Assembly: GCF_900111965.1 (NCBI RefSeq)
Contig: NZ_FOJT01000002.1
Coordinates: 124,001-188,000 of the forward strand
Source of the DNA: Flavobacterium swingsii
GTDB lineage: Bacteria; Bacteroidota; Bacteroidia; Flavobacteriales; Flavobacteriaceae
Length of the DNA: 64,000 nucleotides
Reading direction: 5' to 3'
The notes under the pieces are model-generated. The model did no database searches. It was not told the DNA's origin and was given only the letters and a program-made list of their open reading frames with translations. The translations under genes and the position numbers were made by a program. Position 1 is the first letter of the stretch, and every line of letters starts with the position of its first letter. Below are positions 5,251 to 26,454 of the stretch, piece by piece.

Positions 5251-5256
5251 ATTTTG

Positions 5257-5650
5257 TGGAGTCGCCGAGAATCGAACTCGGGTCCAAACAAGCAACTAAA
5301 GAGCTTTCTACATGTTTATTTCTCGATTGGATTTTCGACCGTGTGCTATGCCAAGAACAGCAACACAAAGCTTATCTTCTTAGTTTCAAAACAGTCCCGA
5401 AGCTTAACTATTTCTAGGTTTAAATTTACGATTCACCTTTATCGAACGCTATAAACCAGAGCTTTCGAGGTAAATCCTGCTCTCCTACCTTGTAGGAGCG
5501 GGGCTAATCTTACTATGATTCAGATTATGCAGCAAGAGCGTAGTTTCCTTCGCCGTGTAAGTGTTTTGGAGCCTTTTATTTACGAGAATTACTCCAGTTC
5601 TCCACATGCTTACAATTCAATTCGACTTGCTGTCAAAACCAGTCGACCCC
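5257..5650 (-). ncRNA. ssrA: tmRNA (ssrA)
   Basis: Transfer-messenger RNA that rescues stalled ribosomes. The 5' end (GGGGTCGACTGG) and 3' end (TTCGATTCTCGGCGACTCCA) form the alanine-type acceptor stem GGGGUCG/CGACUCC, with a T-arm carrying GGUUCGAUUC. The genomic 3' end stops at the discriminator A, so CCA is not encoded in full. The tag frame at 5525-5554 reads GEGNYALAA then TAA, ending in the usual ALAA degron. Length of about 394 nt fits the family. The AT-rich pseudoknots were not modelled. Confidence 0.95.
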
Positions 5651-17575: not shown

Positions 17576-18901
17576 TTAGTTTTTAGATAAATAGAATGAG
17601 TTGATTAGTTTTCCAGAAGCAAATTGCAATTGGTAATATTTTAAAGCAATGTCCGCTTGCGATAACGCTAGATTTATTTTGGTTTGTAGTTGTTGCACAT
17701 CAGCTTCTAATAAATCATTAGTAGTAGATAAACTGTTGTCGTATTTGTCTTTTACAATTCGGTAATTTTCAGTTGCTTGTTCGACAGCTTGTGTGTAAAC
17801 TCCATTTTGTTTTAAAGAAAGGTTGTAGTTTTCTTGAGCTTCATGTGTTTCTTCTTTTATTTTATTTGTTAAAATAGAAACCGCTGTTTTGGTTTGTTCC
17901 GCTTTGCTTTTGGCCAATTTTACTTCTTTACCATTTTTGAAAATCGAAGCCAAATCATAACTCAATCCAACGCCAATATTCATCGCATTTGTCACAGTCA
18001 TCACATCTTTCAAATCGAAAGCAATATAACCGCCCACTAATGCTAACGATGGATAATAACCACTTTTTGCTATTTTTATACCAGCTTCTGAAGCTTTTTG
18101 TTGGTAACTTAAGGCTTCCAAATCGCCTCTTTTGGCTTCAGTTACAAGACCTTGATTCTTTGCCATATCACTTTTTACGGTTTCAATATCAATATCTATT
18201 TGAGTATTTTCTGGCAATTGCAAAAGGGTAGCCAATTGGTAGTTAATAATATTTGCATTTTTCTTAGCAGTATCTAACGAAAGTTGAATATTAGATTCTT
18301 GTAATTGTGATTTCAATAAATCATTTCGAGCCATTAATCCGTTGTCTACCATTGCCGAAAAATCTTTGGTACGTTGTTGGGCACTTTTCAAATTGTCTTC
18401 GATAAGTGTCGCTGTTTGTTGTGATTGAAATAATTTAGCAAACAATTCGACTACATAAATACTTAATTGTTCTTTTGTATTTGCAGCGTTTGCTGTTTCG
18501 GCTTTGTATAAATTTTCTGAAGCAGAAATACTGTTTTTTAACTTAAATCCATTAAAAATCGGCATAGAAACATTGGCTTGACCTAAAAATAATTGACTCA
18601 CTTTAATAGGAGACGAACCTTCGCTAGAAGAACCACCCATTTTAATTTTCGAATCAATATTGGCATCTGTTAGTTGCAAAAATTGTCCCGAAATTTTCAA
18701 ACTCGGATATTGGTTATTTTTCATGGTTTCCATTTCCAATTTAGAAGTGTTTACTTTCATATTGGCTAATACAGCTTCATTACTATTAGTTGTGACTAAC
18801 GAAATGGCTTCTTTGAGAGAGAGGATTTTTCTTTCTTGCGCATATCCAAAAGTTACTCCCAAAAAAGAAATGACAATTAATATTCTTGCTCTAATTTTCA
18901 T
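17576..18901 (-). CDS. tolC: TolC-family outer-membrane efflux channel
   Basis: A 441-residue outer-membrane factor with signal peptide (ILIVISFLGVTFGYAQ). It shows the two-fold helical repeat of TolC proteins: LSLKEAISLVTTNSNEAVLANMKV near the start, and long coiled-coil stretches such as AEQTKTAVSILTNKIKEETHEAQENYNLSLKQ and LLEADVQQLQTKINLALSQADIALKYYQLQ near the end. It forms the exit duct for the HlyD/EmrB system. Its start overlaps the last 11 bp of the tetR-like gene, implying coupled translation. Confidence 0.9.
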   Translation of the reverse strand: MKIRARILIVISFLGVTFGYAQERKILSLKEAISLVTTNSNEAVLANMKVNTSKLEMETMKNNQYPSLKISGQFLQLTDANIDSKIKMGGSSSEGSSPIKVSQLFLGQANVSMPIFNGFKLKNSISASENLYKAETANAANTKEQLSIYVVELFAKLFQSQQTATLIEDNLKSAQQRTKDFSAMVDNGLMARNDLLKSQLQESNIQLSLDTAKKNANIINYQLATLLQLPENTQIDIDIETVKSDMAKNQGLVTEAKRGDLEALSYQQKASEAGIKIAKSGYYPSLALVGGYIAFDLKDVMTVTNAMNIGVGLSYDLASIFKNGKEVKLAKSKAEQTKTAVSILTNKIKEETHEAQENYNLSLKQNGVYTQAVEQATENYRIVKDKYDNSLSTTNDLLEADVQQLQTKINLALSQADIALKYYQLQFASGKLINSFYLSKN

Positions 18902-19514
18902 AAACTAAAAGTGCTTTAATGGTTTGTTGTATGTGTTTTGTTAAATCGTTATAGATGTAATTATCAAAATCTTCAGGAGTTTTCAAATTAAACAAATCGG
19001 CATAAAAAGGTTTATTCATCTGAAAATGAAAATAAGTCCCCATAATTGTTGGAGGGATTAAGACAATGTTGATATTTTTTGTAAATAAACCTTGAGACTG
19101 TCCTTCTTCAATGATGTTTTTAAGAATTCCTAAATTGTATCTTTTGACTTCATTAAAAGCTTCATAATTAATATCTCTTTTTTTAGAAGTAATTTCGAAA
19201 TGAATAATCTGATACATCCCACAATTTTTGTTAATTCTGGTAATGTATAATTCGATTAATTTGTCAATTTTTTCAAAAGGAGTTAAGCTTTCTTTGTAAA
19301 GATTTTCTATTTGTAATTGTAATCCAGAAATTCGGTTGATAATTAAGGCTTCCAGTAATTTTTCTTTCGAACCAAAATAATAGGAAATCATTGCAATATT
19401 AATGTTTGCTTCTTTAGCGATATCTCTTATTGATGTTCCGTCGAAACCATGTTCCGAAAACAGCTTTTCGGCTACTAAAAGAATTTCAATTTGTTTGTCA
19501 TTAAAATCGGTCAT
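18891..19514 (-). CDS. TetR-family repressor of the efflux operon
   Basis: A 207-residue regulator with the TetR N-terminal HTH (AEKLFSEHGFDGTSIRDIAKEANINIAMISYYFGSKEKLLEAL, residues about 15-57) and a helical ligand domain that is not conserved. First gene of the operon with tolC, hlyD and emrB. A tandem 16-bp repeat upstream (19544-19576) is a probable operator, so autoregulation is likely, with the efflux genes induced when a substrate binds. The ligand is unknown. Confidence 0.9.
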   Translation of the reverse strand: MTDFNDKQIEILLVAEKLFSEHGFDGTSIRDIAKEANINIAMISYYFGSKEKLLEALIINRISGLQLQIENLYKESLTPFEKIDKLIELYITRINKNCGMYQIIHFEITSKKRDINYEAFNEVKRYNLGILKNIIEEGQSQGLFTKNINIVLIPPTIMGTYFHFQMNKPFYADLFNLKTPEDFDNYIYNDLTKHIQQTIKALLVYEN

Positions 19515-19640: not shown

Positions 19641-20402
19641 TTAAAGAATTTTAGAAACAAATTTTTCAATGCTGGAAACTCCATTTTCTGTCAAATTTTT
19701 TATAAAAGCGCTACCAATAATTGCCCCTTTTCCAAATTTTGTAGCTTGACTGAAAGTTTCTTTATTGCTAATTCCGAAACCTACAATTTGTGAATTTTTA
19801 AGATTCATTTCTGAAATTCTTTTGAAATAATTGGTTTGAATATCCCCAAATCCAGTAGAGCTTCCAGTTACAGAAGCCGAAGAAACCATATAAATAAATC
19901 CATTAGAAACAGAATCGATATATCTAATTCGTTCTTCGGAAGTTTGAGGGGTAATTAGAAACACATTTATTAAGCCATATTTCTCGAAAGTTTCTTTGTA
20001 GTTTTCTGCATAAATATCGACTGGTAAATCTGGAATTATAAGTCCGTCGATTCCTATCTCTTCGCATTTTTTGCAAAAATCTTCTATTCCGTATTGTAAA
20101 ATTGGGTTGAAATATCCCATAATGATTAGCGGAATTTGTACCGATTGGCGAATATTTTCTAATTGTTCGAAAAGTAATTTTGTGGTCATTCCGTTTTCTA
20201 GAGCTTTAGTCGAACTTTCTTGAATAGTTGGTCCATCGGCTAATGGATCGCTAAATGGTAAACCAATTTCAATCATATCTACTCCAGATTTTTCTAAATC
20301 TTGAATAATCTGAACGGTATCATTTAGGTTTGGATATCCTGCCGAAAAATAAATGGAAAGTATCTTTTTGTCTTCTTGTAATTTTTGATTTATTCTGTTC
20401 AT
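19641..20402 (-). CDS. trpA: tryptophan synthase alpha subunit
   Basis: Cleaves indole-3-glycerol phosphate to indole, which is channelled to TrpB. The 253-residue TIM barrel shows the family signature EIGLPFSDPLADGPTIQ with the catalytic Glu, IIMGYFNPILQYG, DGLIIPDLP with the catalytic Asp, and GFGISNKE at the phosphate site. Last gene of the trp operon, 2 bp after trpB. No dedicated terminator hairpin was seen downstream, only A/T-rich sequence to about 19600. Confidence 0.95.
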   Translation of the reverse strand: MNRINQKLQEDKKILSIYFSAGYPNLNDTVQIIQDLEKSGVDMIEIGLPFSDPLADGPTIQESSTKALENGMTTKLLFEQLENIRQSVQIPLIIMGYFNPILQYGIEDFCKKCEEIGIDGLIIPDLPVDIYAENYKETFEKYGLINVFLITPQTSEERIRYIDSVSNGFIYMVSSASVTGSSTGFGDIQTNYFKRISEMNLKNSQIVGFGISNKETFSQATKFGKGAIIGSAFIKNLTENGVSSIEKFVSKIL

Positions 20403-20404
20403 TT

Positions 20405-21586
20405 CTATAATTTAAAATAATCGATATAAGTGTTCAAATCTTTGTCGCCGCGACCTGATAAATTGATGACTACAATATCGGCCGTTTTGAATTTTTTCTT
20501 ATCTAAAACGGCAAAGGCATGAGCGCTTTCTATAGCGGGAATAATGCCTTCGGTTTGAGACATTTTTATGCCCCAATTCATAGCTTCATCGTCTGTAATA
20601 GAGATAAATTCGGCCCTTTTTGTTTCGAATAAATGGGCGTGCATGGGACCAACTCCGGGATAATCTAATCCTGCGGAAATAGAATAGGGTTCGGTAATTT
20701 GTCCGTCAGGACTTTGCATTAACAGTGTTTTACTTCCGTGAATAATCCCGATTTTGCCTAATGCTGAGGTGGCAGCACTTTCGCCAGAATCGATACCTTT
20801 TCCAGCGGCTTCGACAGCAATTATGTTTACTTCTTTTTCATCAAGAAAATGATAGAAAGTACCTGCTGCATTGCTTCCACCACCTACACAAGCAATGACA
20901 TAATCAGGGTTTTCTTGGCCTTCTTTTTCGAGTAATTGTGCTTTTATTTCTTCTGAAATTACACTTTGGAAACGCGCCACCATATCTGGATACGGATGCG
21001 GACCAACTACGGATCCGATAATATAATAAGTATCTATTGGGTTGTTTATCCAATCTCGAATGGCTTCGTTTGTAGCGTCTTTTAGGGTTTTTGAACCTGA
21101 AGTTGCGGGACGAACTTCAGCACCTAACATTTTCATTCTGGCTACGTTTGGTGCTTGGCGTTTGATGTCGATTTCACCCATATAAACAATGCATTGCAAA
21201 CCCATGAGTGCGCAAACGGTAGCAGTTGCAACGCCATGTTGTCCTGCACCTGTTTCGGCAATAATACGGGTTTTTCCCAATCGTTTTGCTAATAGAATTT
21301 GTCCAATCGTATTATTCACTTTGTGTGCGCCTGTATGACACAAATCTTCTCTTTTTAGATAAATTTTTGTGTTGTATTCTTTTGATAATCGCTCGGCAAA
21401 ATAGAGTGGAGTAGGGCGACCTACATAATCTTTTAACAGTTCGTGAAATTCTTTTTGGAAGGATTTATCGGCTGTTATTTTGAGATAATTTTGTCTTAAT
21501 TCTTCTACATTTGGATAGAGCATTTCGGGAATATAAGCTCCTCCAAAATTGCCGTAAAATCCTTTTTCGTTAACGTGAAAACTCAT
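20405..21586 (-). CDS. trpB: tryptophan synthase beta subunit
   Basis: PLP enzyme joining indole and serine to tryptophan. 393 residues with [12 protein letters not shown] at the N-terminus, the PLP-binding Lys89 in [22 protein letters not shown], the phosphate loop GGGSNAAG, and a conserved HAFAVLD segment. Length and motifs match TrpB1. It lies between trpF and trpA in the operon. Confidence 0.97.
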
Positions 21587-21605
21587 TGTTTTAAAGTTTA
21601 TATGT

Positions 21606-22211
21606 TTAAAATTTCAAGTTGTTTTTGAAACTTTTTAATAATTCAATATTTTTTAATCCTGCTTCGATTTCAAATTTGCTGTTTACATCGATGGCGTAAA
21701 TGGGTAAATTTAGTTCCTTAATATTTTCTATTTCTTCGATTCCGATGCCACCAGAAAGGAAAAATGGTTTTTGTGATTTGTATTTTTCTAGAATTTGCCA
21801 ATTGAAAGTGATTCCGTTTCCGCCAGGTAATTTGCCTTTGGTATCGAATAGAAAATAATCGCAAACATTTTCAAACGGTTCTAATTCTGAAAAATTAAAG
21901 TCATCATTTACAGAAAAAACTTTAATGATTTCGATAGTTGATTTTTTTAATTTTTTGCAAAATTCTGGATTTTCATTTCCGTGTAATTGAATAATGTCCA
22001 AATCATATTTCTTTATTCTAAAAGTAATTTCTTCTAAAGTTGCATCTACAAAAACTCCCACTTTTTTTATTGATTTATTAATTTTAGGGATTTCTCCGTC
22101 AAAATAGCGACTGGATTTCTTCCAGAAAATAAATCCAAGAAAATCTGGAAGTAATTGGCTTACTTCGAGAATGTTTTCGGGATATTTCATTCCGCAGATT
22201 TTGATTTTCAT
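21606..22211 (-). CDS. trpF: phosphoribosylanthranilate isomerase
   Basis: Amadori rearrangement of phosphoribosylanthranilate, third step of the branch. 201 residues, TIM barrel, with the N-terminal [11 protein letters not shown] (catalytic Cys), [35 protein letters not shown]-like [11 protein letters not shown] and the terminal [16 protein letters not shown]. Encoded between trpC and trpB. A 35-bp palindromic repeat separates it from trpC and overlaps the trpC stop. Confidence 0.95.
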
Positions 22212-22225
22212 TGTTTTAGATTTTT

Positions 22226-22260
22226 TAACCCTTCCAGAGTTTTAAACTCTGGAAGGGTTA
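22226..22260. repeat. 35-bp palindrome overlapping the end of trpC
   Basis: Two perfect 17-bp arms (TAACCCTTCCAGAGTTT) around a single base. The TAA stop codon of trpC (22244-22242) is formed by the palindrome centre, and the last residues of TrpC are encoded by one arm. Same 17-1-17 design as the palindromes in repeat copies A and B, but a different sequence. Confidence 0.85.
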
Positions 22261-23042
22261 GTCTGTAATAAATTTATAAATTCACTAGCGCTTTTTCCTG
22301 GATTATCTGTTTTCATAAAGTTTTCACCAATAAGAAATCCTTTATAACCATAAGTTTTTAATTCATTGATGGCTTCGATTGATGAAATCCCGCTTTCGGA
22401 AATTTTCACAAATTCATTAGGAATTTCTGAAGCTAGTTCTTTGCTGAAATCTAAACTGACTTCGAATGTTTTGAGATTGCGATTGTTTACACCAATCATG
22501 TCTAAAGTTGGCATAATTGACTTTTGTAATTCTTCTAGATTATGAACTTCTAACAAAACTTCTAAACCTAGCGATTGGGCAAATTCGGATAAGTTTTTAA
22601 TTTCTTCACGAGTTAAAACTGCTGCGATGAGCAAAATTAAATCGGCTCCATGTGCTTTTGCTTCTAGTATTTGATATTCATCAATAATAAATTCTTTTCG
22701 CAAAAGCGGAATGTTTACCGAAGCTCTTGCTAACAATAAATCATCTAATGAACCACCAAAATATTTTCCGTCTGTTAAAACAGAAATTCCGCAAACACCA
22801 GCATTTTGATACCCTTTTACAACTTCTTCTACCGAAAAACTATAATTTATTTCCGCTTTAGATGGAGAACGTCTTTTATGTTCAGCAATAATTCCAGAAT
22901 TACTATTTCGTAACATTTTGCTCAAAGAAATGGTTCTGCTTCCAAAAAGTATTGAATTTTCTAATTGTGAAACTGGAATTATCGACTTTTTGAGTGCAAT
23001 TTCATTTCTTTTGTCGAAGATGATTTTATCTAAAATATTCAT
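22242..23042 (-). CDS. trpC: indole-3-glycerol-phosphate synthase
   Basis: Decarboxylative ring closure of CdRP to indole-3-glycerol phosphate. 266 residues with the family motifs IIAEHKRRSPSKAEI (catalytic Lys), ISVLTDGKYFGGS, LLRKEFIIDEYQI, EVHNLEEL, GVNNRNLKTF, ISESGI and GFLIGENFM. Separate from trpF, unlike the enteric fusion. The final NPSRV and the stop lie in a palindromic repeat, so the native C-terminus has probably been replaced. Starts 2 bp after the trpD stop. Confidence 0.95.
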   Translation of the reverse strand: MNILDKIIFDKRNEIALKKSIIPVSQLENSILFGSRTISLSKMLRNSNSGIIAEHKRRSPSKAEINYSFSVEEVVKGYQNAGVCGISVLTDGKYFGGSLDDLLLARASVNIPLLRKEFIIDEYQILEAKAHGADLILLIAAVLTREEIKNLSEFAQSLGLEVLLEVHNLEELQKSIMPTLDMIGVNNRNLKTFEVSLDFSKELASEIPNEFVKISESGISSIEAINELKTYGYKGFLIGENFMKTDNPGKSASEFINLLQTNPSRV

Positions 23043-23044
23043 TT

Positions 23045-24037
23045 TTATAAACTTAATTGTTGTAATTTTTTCAGAGCTTCTAATCCTTTTCCTGATAACA
23101 AACTTTCTTTGGCTAATTCGAATCCTTGTTTCGGCGTTAGATTATTTACTGTTGCAATCGCCATTCCGGCATTGGCACAAACGACATTGTTTTGTGCTTC
23201 GGTTCCTTTTCCTGAAATAATAATGAGAAACATTTGCGCCGATTCTTCTATGGTTGTTCCGCCTTGAATATCTGTTTGTGATAAAATATTCACCCCAAAA
23301 TCTTCTGGTTTTAGCATTCCTTCCATTTTATTGGTAATGGTTTTGGTGTTTCCGGTTAAAGAAATTTCGTCATAACCATCTAAACTGTGTAAAATAGTGT
23401 AGTTGGTTTCGGTATTTTGATATAAATAACTGTACATTCTTGCCAATTCGAGATTGAAAACACCAACCAATTGGTTTTTAGGAAAACTCGGATTGACCAT
23501 TGGCCCCAACATATTAAAAAAAGTTTTTACAGCGAGTTCTTTTCTTATTGGTGCTACGTTTTTCATAGCTGGATGAAATAAAGGTGCATGCAAAATACAA
23601 ATCCCAGCTTGGTCGATGCATTTTTCTAAATAATCTTTGTCGTTACTGAATTTTACACCCAAATTTTCCATAACATTACTTGAACCAGAAATAGAAGAAA
23701 CGCCGTAATTTCCGTGTTTTGCAACTTTTATCCCAGCTCCTGCAGTTACGAATGAAGCCAATGTTGAAATGTTGAAAGTGTCTTTTCCGTCGCCACCAGT
23801 TCCGCACAAATCGATGGTGTTATAAGCAGATAAATCGATGGAGATGCACAATTCTAATAATGCTTCTCGGAATCCTGCGAGCTCATCGATAGTGATATTT
23901 CGCATCATATAAACGGTTAAGAAACTGGCTATTTGACTCGGATTGTAACTTCCGTTAGAAATATTGATCAATATATTTTTTGCTTCCTGTTTAGAAAGCG
24001 TTTCGTGGTTGATGAGTCTGTTGAGTATATTTTTCAT
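23045..24037 (-). CDS. trpD: anthranilate phosphoribosyltransferase
   Basis: Transfers phosphoribose from PRPP to anthranilate. About 330 residues with ETLSKQEAKNIL, the PRPP loop DLCGTGGDGKDTFNIST, KHGNYGVSS, FFNMLGPMVNP and the late GKGLEALKKL. ATG 24037 starts the conserved domain; the frame is open 27 codons further to 24118, but those codons run through an intergenic repeat and are not TrpD-like. Lies between trpG and trpC. Confidence 0.95.
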   Translation of the reverse strand: MKNILNRLINHETLSKQEAKNILINISNGSYNPSQIASFLTVYMMRNITIDELAGFREALLELCISIDLSAYNTIDLCGTGGDGKDTFNISTLASFVTAGAGIKVAKHGNYGVSSISGSSNVMENLGVKFSNDKDYLEKCIDQAGICILHAPLFHPAMKNVAPIRKELAVKTFFNMLGPMVNPSFPKNQLVGVFNLELARMYSYLYQNTETNYTILHSLDGYDEISLTGNTKTITNKMEGMLKPEDFGVNILSQTDIQGGTTIEESAQMFLIIISGKGTEAQNNVVCANAGMAIATVNNLTPKQGFELAKESLLSGKGLEALKKLQQLSL

Positions 24038-24043
24038 TTTTAA

Positions 24044-24085
24044 TGGCACGCAGATGACGTTGATTTTAGCTGATTTACACGGTTT
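24044..24085. repeat. intergenic repeat between trpG and trpD
   Basis: On the minus strand the stretch includes AATCAACGTCATCTGCGTGCC, a phrase of the kind that recurs between genes in Bacteroidota. It fills most of the trpG-trpD gap. A single copy lies in the window, so the repeat status rests on memory of related genomes. Confidence 0.4.
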
Positions 24086-24102
24086 CTTTAAACTTGAATT
24101 AT

Positions 24103-24669
24103 TTAATTTGTAACCCAATTTTCTAATATTTTTTTACCGTTTGGTGTGAGTACACTTTCTGGGTGAAATTGTACGCCACGAACATCATAAGTTTTGTGAC
24201 GTAAAGACATGATTTGCCCGTTTTCATCGGTTGATGTGATTTCTAAAACATCTGGAAAATCATCAGTATTAACAACCCACGAATGATAACGTCCTACTTC
24301 GATTTGTTTTTCTAAACCATCAAAAAGACTTTCATTATCAACAAGAATATTCACATTTGTAGCTACGCCGTGATATACTTTTTCAAGATTAATTAGGCTT
24401 CCGCCAAAAACTTCTCCAATGGCTTGTTGTCCCAAACAAACACCCAAAATACTTTTTGTAGCAGCATACGTTTTGATAACTTCTTTGAGCAAACCAGCTT
24501 CATCAGGAATTCCTGGACCTGGAGAAAGTAATATTTTGTCGAAATTTTTTATTTCATCAATATCGAATTCATCGTTGCGATATACGGTTACTTCGCAGTT
24601 TAAATCTTCGAGATAATGTACTAAATTGTATGTAAAACTATCGTAATTGTCTATGACTAGTATATTCAT
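24103..24669 (-). CDS. trpG: anthranilate synthase component II (glutamine amidotransferase)
   Basis: Supplies ammonia from glutamine to TrpE. ATG 24669 (MNILVIDNYDSFTYN) is the family start; the nine upstream codons come from a repeat. Class I amidotransferase triad: Cys78 in GVCLGQQ, and His/Glu in VQFHPES near the C-terminus. Oxyanion stretch LLSPGPGIPDEAG at about 48-59. About 188 residues. Separate gene between trpE and trpD. It could also serve p-aminobenzoate synthesis, as in other bacteria with a single amidotransferase. Confidence 0.93.
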   Translation of the reverse strand: MNILVIDNYDSFTYNLVHYLEDLNCEVTVYRNDEFDIDEIKNFDKILLSPGPGIPDEAGLLKEVIKTYAATKSILGVCLGQQAIGEVFGGSLINLEKVYHGVATNVNILVDNESLFDGLEKQIEVGRYHSWVVNTDDFPDVLEITSTDENGQIMSLRHKTYDVRGVQFHPESVLTPNGKKILENWVTN

Positions 24670-24793
24670 AATGTTCAATGTCAATGTCAATATCAAAAAT
24701 CAATATCAACTAATTATTTTTTAAATTTTAAATTTAATTCAATTTCAAAATCAGTTTTTTATTGTTATTGATTTTTGAAATTGAAATTGTTAT
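24670..24793. other. trpE-trpG intergenic region with AT-rich repeats
   Basis: A 124-bp spacer inside the trp operon made of short degenerate units of the TCAATNTCAA type near 24676-24712, followed by A/T runs. No open frame, promoter or clear terminator is seen. Confidence 0.4.
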
Positions 24794-26194
24794 TTATATT
24801 TTTTCTGCTAATTCTAACGCTTTGTCTAAAGCACCTAATTTATTATATACTTCTTGCAATTCGCTTTCTTCATCAGAATTTGCTACGATTCCCGCACCAG
24901 CTTGGTAATGCAATTGATGGTTTTTACTTAAAAAAGTTCGAATCATAATGGCGTGGTTAAAGTTACCTTCAAAATCCATAAAACCTATTGCGCCTCCATA
25001 AAAATTTCTATTCGTGTTTTCATATTTTTCGATGAGTTCCATCGCTTTGTATTTTGGAGCACCAGATAATGTTCCCGCAGGAAAAGTATTAGCTACGACT
25101 TGCATGGTTGCTGATTTTTCATGCATTTGTCCTGTAACTTTTGATACCAAATGAATGACATGTGAGAAAAATTGCACTTCACGATATTTTTCTACTTGTA
25201 CATTATGACTTTGCCTGCTTAAATCATTTCGAGCTAAATCGACTAGCATCACATGTTCGGCATTTTCTTTTTCATCTTCGGATAATTCTTTAGCTAAAAT
25301 GGCATCTTGTTCGTCGTTTCCAGTTCGTTTGAAAGTTCCTGCGATTGGGTGAATTTCGGCTTTTCTATTTTTAATAACCAATTGTGCTTCGGGCGAAGAA
25401 CCCATAATTTTGAAATCTCCATAATCGAAAAAGAACAAATACGGAGAAGGATTTATACTTCGTAAAGCACGATAAACATTGAATTCGTCTCCTTTGAAAC
25501 CTTGTGTAAATCGTCGTGATAGTACTAATTGAAAAACTTCTCCACGATAACAATGTTTTTTGGCTAAAGCCACATTATTTTTGAAATCGTCATCTGTTAA
25601 ATTCGATTTTTTATCATCGGTTTTAGAGAAAGAATAAGCTGGCAAATTACGTGTTTGTAGCAATTGCTCGATTTCATTGATGTTGTTTTCATCGTTTAAT
25701 GAATGACAGAAAATATAGGCTTCATTTTTAAAATGATTAATGGCAATTATATTTTGATAAACGGCGTAATAAATATCTGGAATTTGTAAGTCATTTTCCT
25801 TTTTTGATATTTCTATTTTTTCGAAATAACGCACCGCATCATAGGAAATATAACCAAATAATCCGTTATTGATGAATTTGAAATCATTGTTTTCTGATTT
25901 GAATTGAGTTGTAAATTTCTGAATTTCGTTTGGAATATTGGTCTGATTATCAATTTCTATCTTTTCTGAAGTTCCATCAGGAAATGATTTGAAAATAGTT
26001 TCGTTTTCTATTTTTATTGATGCTATTGGATTGCAACAGATGTAGGAAAAACTGTTGTCATTCGCATGATAATCGCTACTTTCTAACAATAAACTGTTAG
26101 GAAATTTGTCACGAATTTTCAGGTAAATGCTTACTGGCGTGATAGTATCAGCGAGGATTTGTTTGAATTGTGTTTTAAGGTTGTAAGTTTTCAT
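24794..26194 (-). CDS. trpE: anthranilate synthase component I
   Basis: Converts chorismate to anthranilate, the committed step. ATG 26194 (MKTYNLKTQFKQIL) is preferred; upstream codons belong to the attenuator terminator. The N-terminal domain contains LLLESSDYHANDNSFSYI, the likely Trp feedback site (LLES...S motif). The chorismate-binding domain has GEVFQLVLSRRF, PSPYLFFFDYG, IAGTFKRTG, DLARNDLSR, FPAGTLSGAPK and GGAIGFMDFEGN. About 466 residues. First structural gene of trpEGDCFBA, controlled by an upstream leader peptide and attenuator. Confidence 0.96.
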   Translation of the reverse strand: MKTYNLKTQFKQILADTITPVSIYLKIRDKFPNSLLLESSDYHANDNSFSYICCNPIASIKIENETIFKSFPDGTSEKIEIDNQTNIPNEIQKFTTQFKSENNDFKFINNGLFGYISYDAVRYFEKIEISKKENDLQIPDIYYAVYQNIIAINHFKNEAYIFCHSLNDENNINEIEQLLQTRNLPAYSFSKTDDKKSNLTDDDFKNNVALAKKHCYRGEVFQLVLSRRFTQGFKGDEFNVYRALRSINPSPYLFFFDYGDFKIMGSSPEAQLVIKNRKAEIHPIAGTFKRTGNDEQDAILAKELSEDEKENAEHVMLVDLARNDLSRQSHNVQVEKYREVQFFSHVIHLVSKVTGQMHEKSATMQVVANTFPAGTLSGAPKYKAMELIEKYENTNRNFYGGAIGFMDFEGNFNHAIMIRTFLSKNHQLHYQAGAGIVANSDEESELQEVYNKLGALDKALELAEKI

Positions 26195-26221
26195 TTGTGT
26201 TGGTTTTGTTTTTTGCATAAA

Positions 26222-26253
26222 AAAAAGGCTTGTCGTGATTGACAAGCCTTTTT
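26222..26253 (-). terminator. trp attenuator (terminator hairpin)
   Basis: On the minus strand, arms AAAAAGGCTTGTC and GACAAGCCTTTTT around AATCAC, followed by a T run. It lies between the leader peptide and trpE. The segment TCACGAC in loop and right arm (26238-26232) is complementary to GTCGTGA at the end of the leader frame (26300-26294), giving an alternative antiterminator. Confidence 0.85.
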
Positions 26254-26293
26254 ATATATTTTGAGTTTAAAAAATACAATATAGAGGATTAGT

Positions 26294-26350
26294 TCACGAC
26301 GTTTGACGTAAATTATTCCACCACCAAGTATTGTTTAAAAATGTGTTCAT
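26294..26350 (-). CDS. trpL: trp operon leader peptide with three tandem Trp codons
   Basis: An 18-codon frame reading MNTFLNNTWWWNNLRQTS then TGA. It begins about 17 bp after a good -7 element and ends 41 bp before the attenuator stem. The three adjacent TGG codons are the sensor: a ribosome stalled there for lack of charged tRNA-Trp would leave the GTCGTGA segment free to pair downstream and block the terminator. No Shine-Dalgarno sequence precedes the ATG, as is usual in Flavobacterium. The frame is too short for standard gene calling. Role inferred from codons, position and RNA pairing. Confidence 0.88.
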   Translation of the reverse strand: MNTFLNNTWWWNNLRQTS

Positions 26351-26366
26351 GTTCTTAATTGAATGT

Positions 26367-26397
26367 CAAAAGTAGTGATTAAATCTTTACTTGCAAA
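26367..26397 (-). promoter_or_regulatory. trp operon promoter
   Basis: On the minus strand, TTTG (26397-26394) and TACTTTTG (26374-26367) are separated by 19 bp, an exact Bacteroidota-type promoter. Transcription should start only about 10 nt before the leader ATG. Confidence 0.8.
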
Positions 26398-26420
26398 TAT
26401 TAGTTCATTTTTTTGTCAAA

Positions 26421-26454
26421 ATAAAAAAACCTCGAAGATTGCTCGACGAGGTTT
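26421..26454 (-). terminator. terminator of the marR-nitroreductase-yceI operon
   Basis: On the minus strand, AAACCTCG / CGAGGTTT with a 12-nt loop, followed by T7ATTTT. It is 21 bp after the yceI stop and just upstream of the trp promoter. Confidence 0.8.

Follow-up and report, generated by a model that had tools for sequence, protein, structure and literature searches.

A Bacteroid-trp attenuator before the trp operon of Flavobacterium swingsii: predicted switching, conserved spacing and possible lysine-coded relatives

The trp Operon and Its Leader Region

The stretch of DNA analyzed here (the window) comprises 64,000 nucleotides from Flavobacterium swingsii (contig NZ_FOJT01000002.1, positions 124,001 to 188,000) and carries on its minus strand an operon of seven genes: trpE, trpG, trpD, trpC, trpF, trpB and trpA (19641–26194). 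The first gene, trpE (24794–26194), has NCBIfam TIGR00564 as its best family with 452.9 bits, under the cut-off of 517.7; trpF is also under its NCBIfam cut-off, and the other five genes each reach one. The start of trpE was taken to be the ATG at 26194; another in-frame ATG is at 26218. Directly behind trpA, on the same strand, is a gene for a TetR-type regulator (18891–19514), which reaches no NCBIfam cut-off. A TetR gene lies behind trpA in F. psychrophilum as well, with the protease gene FP0506 between the two where it is present (PMC6414381). Elsewhere in the window are three Flavo-1 RNAs (RF01705; 13745–13834, 16382–16471 and 59189–59292) and a tmRNA (5254–5650).

Upstream of trpEGDCFBA, the minus strand from 26397 to 26222 holds a promoter, an 18-codon leader with three adjacent Trp codons (WWW), and a terminator with a T-run, at the coordinates that a first-pass annotation had given. 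The promoter consists of a −33 element, TTTG (26394–26397), and a −7 box, TACTTTTG (26367–26374), which fits TAnnTTTG; the 19 nt from one to the other are the consensus spacing. Such a box occupies positions −12 to −5 relative to the start of transcription (PMC9723704), and by our own count from it, transcription is predicted to start at 26362, giving a predicted 5′ UTR of 12 nt. The leader ORF, MNTFLNNTWWWNNLRQTS (26294–26350), starts with the ATG at 26350–26348, stops with the TGA at 26296–26294, and has no Shine–Dalgarno sequence; its Trp codons (26318–26326) are the putative sensor. The intrinsic terminator (26222–26253; −17.7 kcal/mol) is a stem-loop with a stem of 13 bp and a run of eight Ts (26226–26219), before trpE.

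The sequences GTCGTGA (26300–26294), overlapping the leader stop codon, and TCACGAC (26238–26232), in the terminator loop and the top of the 3′ arm, are exact complements, as had been noticed previously. They are regarded as the 5′ and 3′ strands of the antiterminator (GUCGUGA and UCACGAC in the RNA) from the conservation of TCGTGA and TCACGA and, for the 3′ strand, from class-wide complementarity to its own leader. The pattern CGTCGTGA followed after 55–80 nt by TCACGAC has a single match in the whole 2.57-Mb genome, at the trp leader; a reversed control pattern has none in the same 2.57 Mb.

Folding of the leader RNA, which had been suggested as a check, gave −37.7 kcal/mol for 143 nt, compared with −17.3 ± 3.1 for shuffled sequences (z = −6.5; 0 of 200 shuffles equal). 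Besides the terminator, the minimum-energy fold has a protector hairpin (26266–26339), which was missing from the first-pass annotation. The outer stem of this hairpin spans the Trp codons, and its tip (P1, 26293–26312) pairs UUUACG (26312–26307) with CGUGAA (26298–26293).

Membership of the Bacteroid-trp Family

The leader matches the Rfam family RF01692 (Bacteroid-trp) at 26241–26370 over the full length of the model (1–131 of 131), with 79.5 bits against a gathering score of 49. With this score over the curated cut-off, trp genes downstream and a short ORF with Trp codons, the element is the same as that of Rfam, upstream of trpE: a Bacteroid-trp attenuator, ordinary in kind and belonging to a catalogued family that the earlier annotation had not named, rather than something new. 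The family was listed in 2010 (Table 1 of PMC2864571) and is conserved before the trp operon of F. psychrophilum (PMC6414381). The trp leader is the only match over the cut-off in the source genome; a weak match (24.9 bits), considered as a second copy, proved to be the start of a large ORF. No Rfam T-box riboswitch is among the matches in the window, nor in 26180–26430 at E ≤ 1.

For F. psychrophilum, five Rfam-predicted cis-regulatory elements are reported to be expressed, and “strong clues” are described for leader-peptide attenuation upstream of amino-acid operons, trp not being named in that portion of the report (PMC9723704). The 5′ elements of pheA and hisG in that species, described as lacking Rfam matches, are likewise structured elements of amino-acid operons in the same genus (PMC9723704). 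In the open-access literature searched, no study was found that directly measured read-through in response to tryptophan in Flavobacterium, in agreement with what the first-pass annotation had said.

At E ≤ 0.01, RF01692 was detected in 98 of the 150 Flavobacterium genomes; at E ≤ 0.1, it was detected in 268 of 299 Flavobacteriaceae genomes, 202 of them with a score over the cut-off. Of 392 genomes sampled across the phylum, 58 had a match, 41 of the 58 being Flavobacteriaceae. In some Flavobacterium genomes, the Trp leader precedes trpB and not trpE (loci L304, L311, L312, L314, L315, L334 and L337). Two matches in one genome (G131) were considered as a possible re-coded leader, which was rejected, as both are trpE contigs.

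The Rfam model stops within the 5′ arm of the terminator (GGCUUGUC). It has neither the loop nor the 3′ arm of the terminator, and therefore lacks the antiterminator. A model including the terminator (R1) was built from 42 Flavobacteriaceae sequences; tested partly on its own members, it matched 238 of 249 Flavobacteriaceae genomes at E ≤ 0.01 and 193 at E ≤ 1e-6, with a single match in each of the 193 at the latter threshold and under stricter filters. Matches below about 50 bits are often plain terminators: 10 such loci inspected by eye were plain terminators or antisense, with no Trp or Lys leader.

Conservation within the Flavobacteriaceae

The close loci number 110 (101 distinct). Besides the window, they comprise 29 RF01692 loci of the genus and 80 trpE loci from named genomes, the best 80 among 412 relatives. 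The 80 trpE loci are 81–85% identical, and nearly all are titled Flavobacterium. WWW is kept in 110 of 110, which answers the suggested check for conserved TGG runs upstream of trpE, and a WW leader is found near the RF01692 match in 105 of 109 further family loci. Over all 219 loci, which are partly redundant, TCGTGA is exact in 212, TCACGA of the terminator in 213 and both in 208; TCGTGA follows the first Trp codon at a distance of 27–28 nt in 213. The stop codon is at +3 in 102 of the 110 close loci and at −3 in the other 8; it is at −6, +3 or +8 in 99 of the 109 family loci. In these loci, conservation falls on the RNA segment and on how far it lies from the Trp codons, rather than on the end of the peptide.

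This bears on the idea that the leader peptide, or the transcript once terminated, has a further role in trans, for which there is a precedent in rnTrpL and peTrpL of Sinorhizobium meliloti (PMC7298713). The peptide is indeed conserved beyond WWW in close relatives (NNT-WWW-NNLRQTS), but the RNA pairings can explain this conservation, and where the stop codon has moved (peptides ending in CFRN or NSIFVN), the peptide changes whereas TCGTGA stays. An additional action in trans is thus considered very improbable.

Eleven of the 219 loci deviate from TCGTGA or TCACGA (L026, L124, L135, L150, L159, L204, L215, L216, L259, L260 and L261). Inspection by eye indicates other pairings in several: GTCGCAA with TTGCGAC in L204, GTGAG with CTCAC in L216 and L260, and GTGAG with CTCAT in L261. 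There is a shifted helix with 5–6 pairs in L159, L215 and L259, and one end pair is lost in L124, L135 and L150. The 6-mer matching used over the 219 loci misplaced L204, L216 and L260.

In 42 aligned family sequences, no covariation signal was found for the antiterminator (382 of 500 shuffles were as high). This is because the antiterminator columns are nearly invariant, and the absence of covariation within the family neither supports nor contradicts the antiterminator. In the tip of the protector, 20 of the 42 sequences have C-G as the outer pair of P1 and 18 have U-A; the inner pairs, in the register counted, are not formed in 6–7 of the 42. Swapping P1 partners among 90 distinct sequences gave weaker pairing (0 of 5,000 as good), in part because there are two clades.

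The Predicted Antiterminator across the Bacteroidia

Outside the family, 57 loci of other Bacteroidia were sampled, 17 by an RF01692 match and 40 by the trpE protein only; 48 of the 57, and 32 of the 40, were usable, i.e., had a WW leader and a terminator. Nine were dropped because they lacked a WW leader with a terminator (L257, L263, L265, L270, L271, L276, L281, L285 and L298); one of these, L276, was truncated at 171 nt. Loci L259–L262 are Flavobacteriaceae and were moved to the family set; L258, also from this family, gave no result. Three genomes (G690, G647 and G539) contributed two loci each.

Each leader was paired with its own terminator and with those of the others (n = 49 with the window). 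The mean was −16.7 kcal/mol for own partners and −12.6 (sd 0.43) for permuted partners, and a gap-free stem score gave −14.06 and −10.92 (sd 0.34), respectively; in both cases, 0 of 10,000 permutations were as good. These statistics ignore kinship, and the independent cases are fewer than 49; the permuted control is also harder to beat because relatives share partners. Only 31 of the 49 leaders have their own terminator among the best tenth, and the poorest-fitting loci (ranked 16th or lower among 48 swaps) are L249, L252, L253, L273, L279, L286, L288, L291 and L295.

Quite different sequences have the same role: TTGAATCGG in the leader with CCGATTCAA in the terminator (L280), GTGGACAGC with GCTGTTCAC (L297), CTTGCCGGGT with ACCCGGCAAG (L299), and GGCAACCT with GGGTTGCC (L248). 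The part of the terminator that is used varies among Bacteroidia and may be the 5′ arm, the loop or the 3′ arm. Several genomes at the class level, labeled family f3, carry a pair of Trp-rich leaders (L246–L250 and L254 against L275, L278, L281, L283 and L285); one of the pair precedes trpE, and the other a gene that by eye resembles trpD.

In 45 of the 49 cases, the best stem starts 20–29 nt past the first Trp codon (permuted mean 21, maximum 32 in 5,000); this interval was picked with the data already in view. The comparison of spreads was not chosen in this way: the standard deviation of the helix start is 4.6 nt when measured from the Trp codon and 12.2 nt when measured from the stop codon. 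Such a spacing from the Trp codon is what a stalled ribosome would impose: the segment just past its leading edge has to remain free.

Initiation without a Shine–Dalgarno Sequence

With the leader start defined as the earliest in-frame ATG 5–11 codons before the Trp run, a Shine–Dalgarno-like tetramer precedes only 2 of 219 leaders. Of 99 distinct close leaders, 94 have a TAnnTTTG box within the preceding 60 nt, as do 108 of 109 family leaders. Among those with the box, a 5′ UTR of 0 nt is predicted for 17 of 94 close leaders, and one of 11–16 nt for 74 of the remaining 77. In the family, 23 of 108 have a predicted 0–1 nt and 53 of the other 85 have 11–16 nt, the rest being between or beyond these values. 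Thus, 40 of 202 leaders with a box are predicted to be leaderless (0–1 nt), and that of the window is not one of the 40. Examples are L033, L034, L035, L115 and L116: the box ends 4–5 nt before the leader ATG, and the predicted start of transcription is therefore at the ATG or 1 nt before it. The first-pass annotation had proposed initiation that is either independent of Shine–Dalgarno sequences or leaderless-like. The former stands for the window; the latter does not, as its leader has a predicted 5′ UTR.

Leaderless mRNAs make up 5.5% of those in F. psychrophilum (PMC9723704), and in F. johnsoniae, 87% of the transcripts with a probable promoter have leaders longer than 10 nt (PMC6847099). 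Compared with these figures, leaderless trp leaders would, by promoter prediction, be over-represented. In S. meliloti, the RNA that carries the trp leader ORF begins at the leader ATG (PMC7298713), as predicted for part of the Flavobacteriaceae; it differs in phylum and sequence, and the leader in the window differs also by its predicted 5′ UTR of 12 nt.

Computed Folding of the Switch

The E. coli trp attenuator (Yanofsky type) has tandem Trp codons, a protector, an antiterminator and a terminator. All four are found in the window, where the intrinsic terminator is located before the first gene and the antiterminator, by computation, excludes the terminator. In E. coli, the antiterminator strand lies about 20 nt after the first Trp codon, compared with 26 nt in the window. 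Furthermore, the exact pairing in Flavobacteriaceae uses the loop and 3′ arm of the terminator rather than its 5′ arm, and the leaders, unlike that of E. coli, have no Shine–Dalgarno sequence, some in relatives being predicted to be leaderless.

For folding, a ribosome was assumed to extend from 18 nt behind the A-site codon to 14 nt ahead of it. When the leader is folded without the terminator, the antiterminator strand is paired with a probability of 0.83 if untranslated, 0.82 with a ribosome on the first Trp codon and 0.16 with a ribosome on the third. It was considered from P1 in these folds that only the second and third Trp codons open the switch; this was rejected, as the first also gives 0.99 in growing transcripts. 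In the latter, each value being the equilibrium at a given length, the antiterminator peaks at 0.99 for a ribosome on either the first or the second Trp codon and at 1.00 for one on the third, compared with 0.04 without a ribosome and 0.00 with the ribosome at the stop codon, this last value being largely a result of the assumed footprint. The antiterminator is at least 0.87 for 3′ ends at 26232–26228 (second and third Trp codons) and at least 0.71 for 26233–26229 (first Trp codon); the terminator replaces it from a 3′ end at 26227 onward. About 9–14 nt are held inside RNA polymerase, and allowing for these, the range in the model corresponds to the polymerase crossing the T-run.

Equilibrium folds of the full-length RNA with a stalled ribosome did not contain the antiterminator, which the truncated transcripts revealed: in the complete RNA, the terminator prevails whichever state the ribosome is in, and switching therefore has to be kinetic. 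The same dominance would be expected if the leader worked mainly as a fixed terminator and thereby set basal trpE expression, with a WWW peptide that does not sense tryptophan. However, such a terminator needs no near-invariant loop (TCACGA in 213 of 219), no WWW run, no spacing of 27–28 nt from the Trp codons, and no complementarity to the leader that tracks across families, and we give it only a very slender chance. Mutually exclusive structures, as proposed in the first-pass annotation, are backed by the permutations and the truncated transcripts, with the GTCGTGA/TCACGAC pairing constituting one half of the switch.

The same folds were computed for 106 Flavobacteriaceae leaders, of which 104 have an antiterminator above 0.5 with the ribosome on the last Trp codon, none with it at the stop codon, and 32 without a ribosome. 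Among 48 other Bacteroidia, the numbers are 40, 3 and 19, respectively, and the antiterminator stays below 0.5 with a stalled ribosome in the other 8. In three loci (L245, L267 and L295), the computed antiterminator persists with the ribosome at the stop codon (0.98, 0.98 and 0.69). Thus, switching by ribosome position is general, whereas being off when untranslated, as computed for the window, is not.

The leaders that are on without a ribosome (32 of 106 and 19 of 48), together with predicted 5′ UTR lengths that differ sharply between lineages, could be taken to mean that initiation of translation, and not stalling, is the main step sensed, with start-site strength or global translation being dominant where an untranslated leader is on. 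Against this, the leader in the window is not among these (at most 0.04 without a ribosome), and WWW has been kept in all 110 close loci, so that we find initiation as the main sensed step exceedingly unlikely.

The element in the window is very probably a ribosome-mediated transcription attenuator of the trp operon and a member of the Bacteroid-trp family, as the computations support. From its parts, their conservation, complementarity and spacing, and the computed folds, we infer the following events, in which the start of transcription, the position and footprint of the ribosome, its coupling to the polymerase, the kinetics and the response to tryptophan are all putative. RNA polymerase would start near 26362, and a ribosome would begin the leader without a Shine–Dalgarno sequence. 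When tryptophan is scarce, the ribosome would stall on a Trp codon and open the outer stem of the protector (on the third Trp codon, also the tip P1). The freed GUCGUGA would then grab UCACGAC as it emerges, nucleation of the terminator would come too late, and the polymerase would enter trpE. When tryptophan is plentiful, the ribosome would reach the stop codon and cover GUCGUGA, and the terminator would form; with no ribosome, the protector would hold GUCGUGA, and the terminator would likewise form.

A Possible Lysine Version before Aspartate Kinase

One Flavobacterium genome (G072) has a second RF01692 match, of 46.2 bits (under the cut-off of 49), upstream of an aspartate kinase gene (TIGR00657, 288.3 bits, cut-off 208.7). 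The next gene encodes diaminopimelate decarboxylase (TIGR01048, 239.6 bits, under the cut-off of 297.9) and is cut by the end of the locus. The leader (L303 207–400, G072:C26), MNTWIIKKGKKQYLRRTS, has the same tip hairpin, TCGTGA and TCACGA-bearing terminator loop. In place of Trp codons, there is KK-G-KK, the last Lys codon being 21 nt before TCGTGA, i.e., at the position of the third Trp codon in the window.

A scaffold pattern that barred T at the first base of the position of the third Trp codon was searched in 398 genomes of the genus and found at 11 places in 9 genomes (reversed control: 2 places). Six of the 11 are trp leaders with other spacing, and five are Lys leaders (G018, G123, G1149, G072 and G1085); the scaffold loci with Lys codons are L303, L309, L310, L313, L317 and L318. 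Downstream of all five Lys leaders is an ORF with MKVLKFGGTSVG, the start of aspartate kinase; the gene was examined by family scan, together with the second gene, in G072 only. With a ribosome on the last two Lys codons, the antiterminator reaches 0.97–0.99, and with one at the stop codon 0.00, in all five; without a ribosome, it is still 0.51–0.97 in three. G018 has a single strong R1 match, its Lys leader with 74.3 bits, the next scoring 40.9; four of the five Lys leaders were among the sequences from which R1 was built, and these scores are no independent test.

These leaders look like a re-coded, lysine-sensing version of the attenuator. The Trp version probably came first, because it is spread more widely than the Lys version. 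No lysine attenuator of Bacteroid-trp type was found by title or start of abstract in the open-access literature, and the source genome of the window has only distant relatives of the aspartate kinase of the Lys leaders (27 and 29% identity).

Implications

On balance, we lean towards seeing Bacteroid-trp as a modular chassis, whose specificity would be set solely by codons lying a fixed distance ahead of the antiterminator, which may have been re-coded from Trp to Lys as a lysine attenuator before aspartate kinase in a few Flavobacterium, and whose Trp leaders may be leaderless in several lineages. The pairing of the antiterminator and its spacing from the Trp codons were worked out in the present analysis and go beyond the Rfam model. 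On these computations, further work is merited on the antiterminator across the class, its spacing from the Trp codons, the leaders predicted to be leaderless and, most of all, the re-coding to lysine. They make testable a classic form of attenuation in a phylum that starts translation without Shine–Dalgarno sequences, perhaps partly from leaderless mRNAs, and also whether the specificity of an attenuator can be swapped by its codons alone, as the lysine version suggests.
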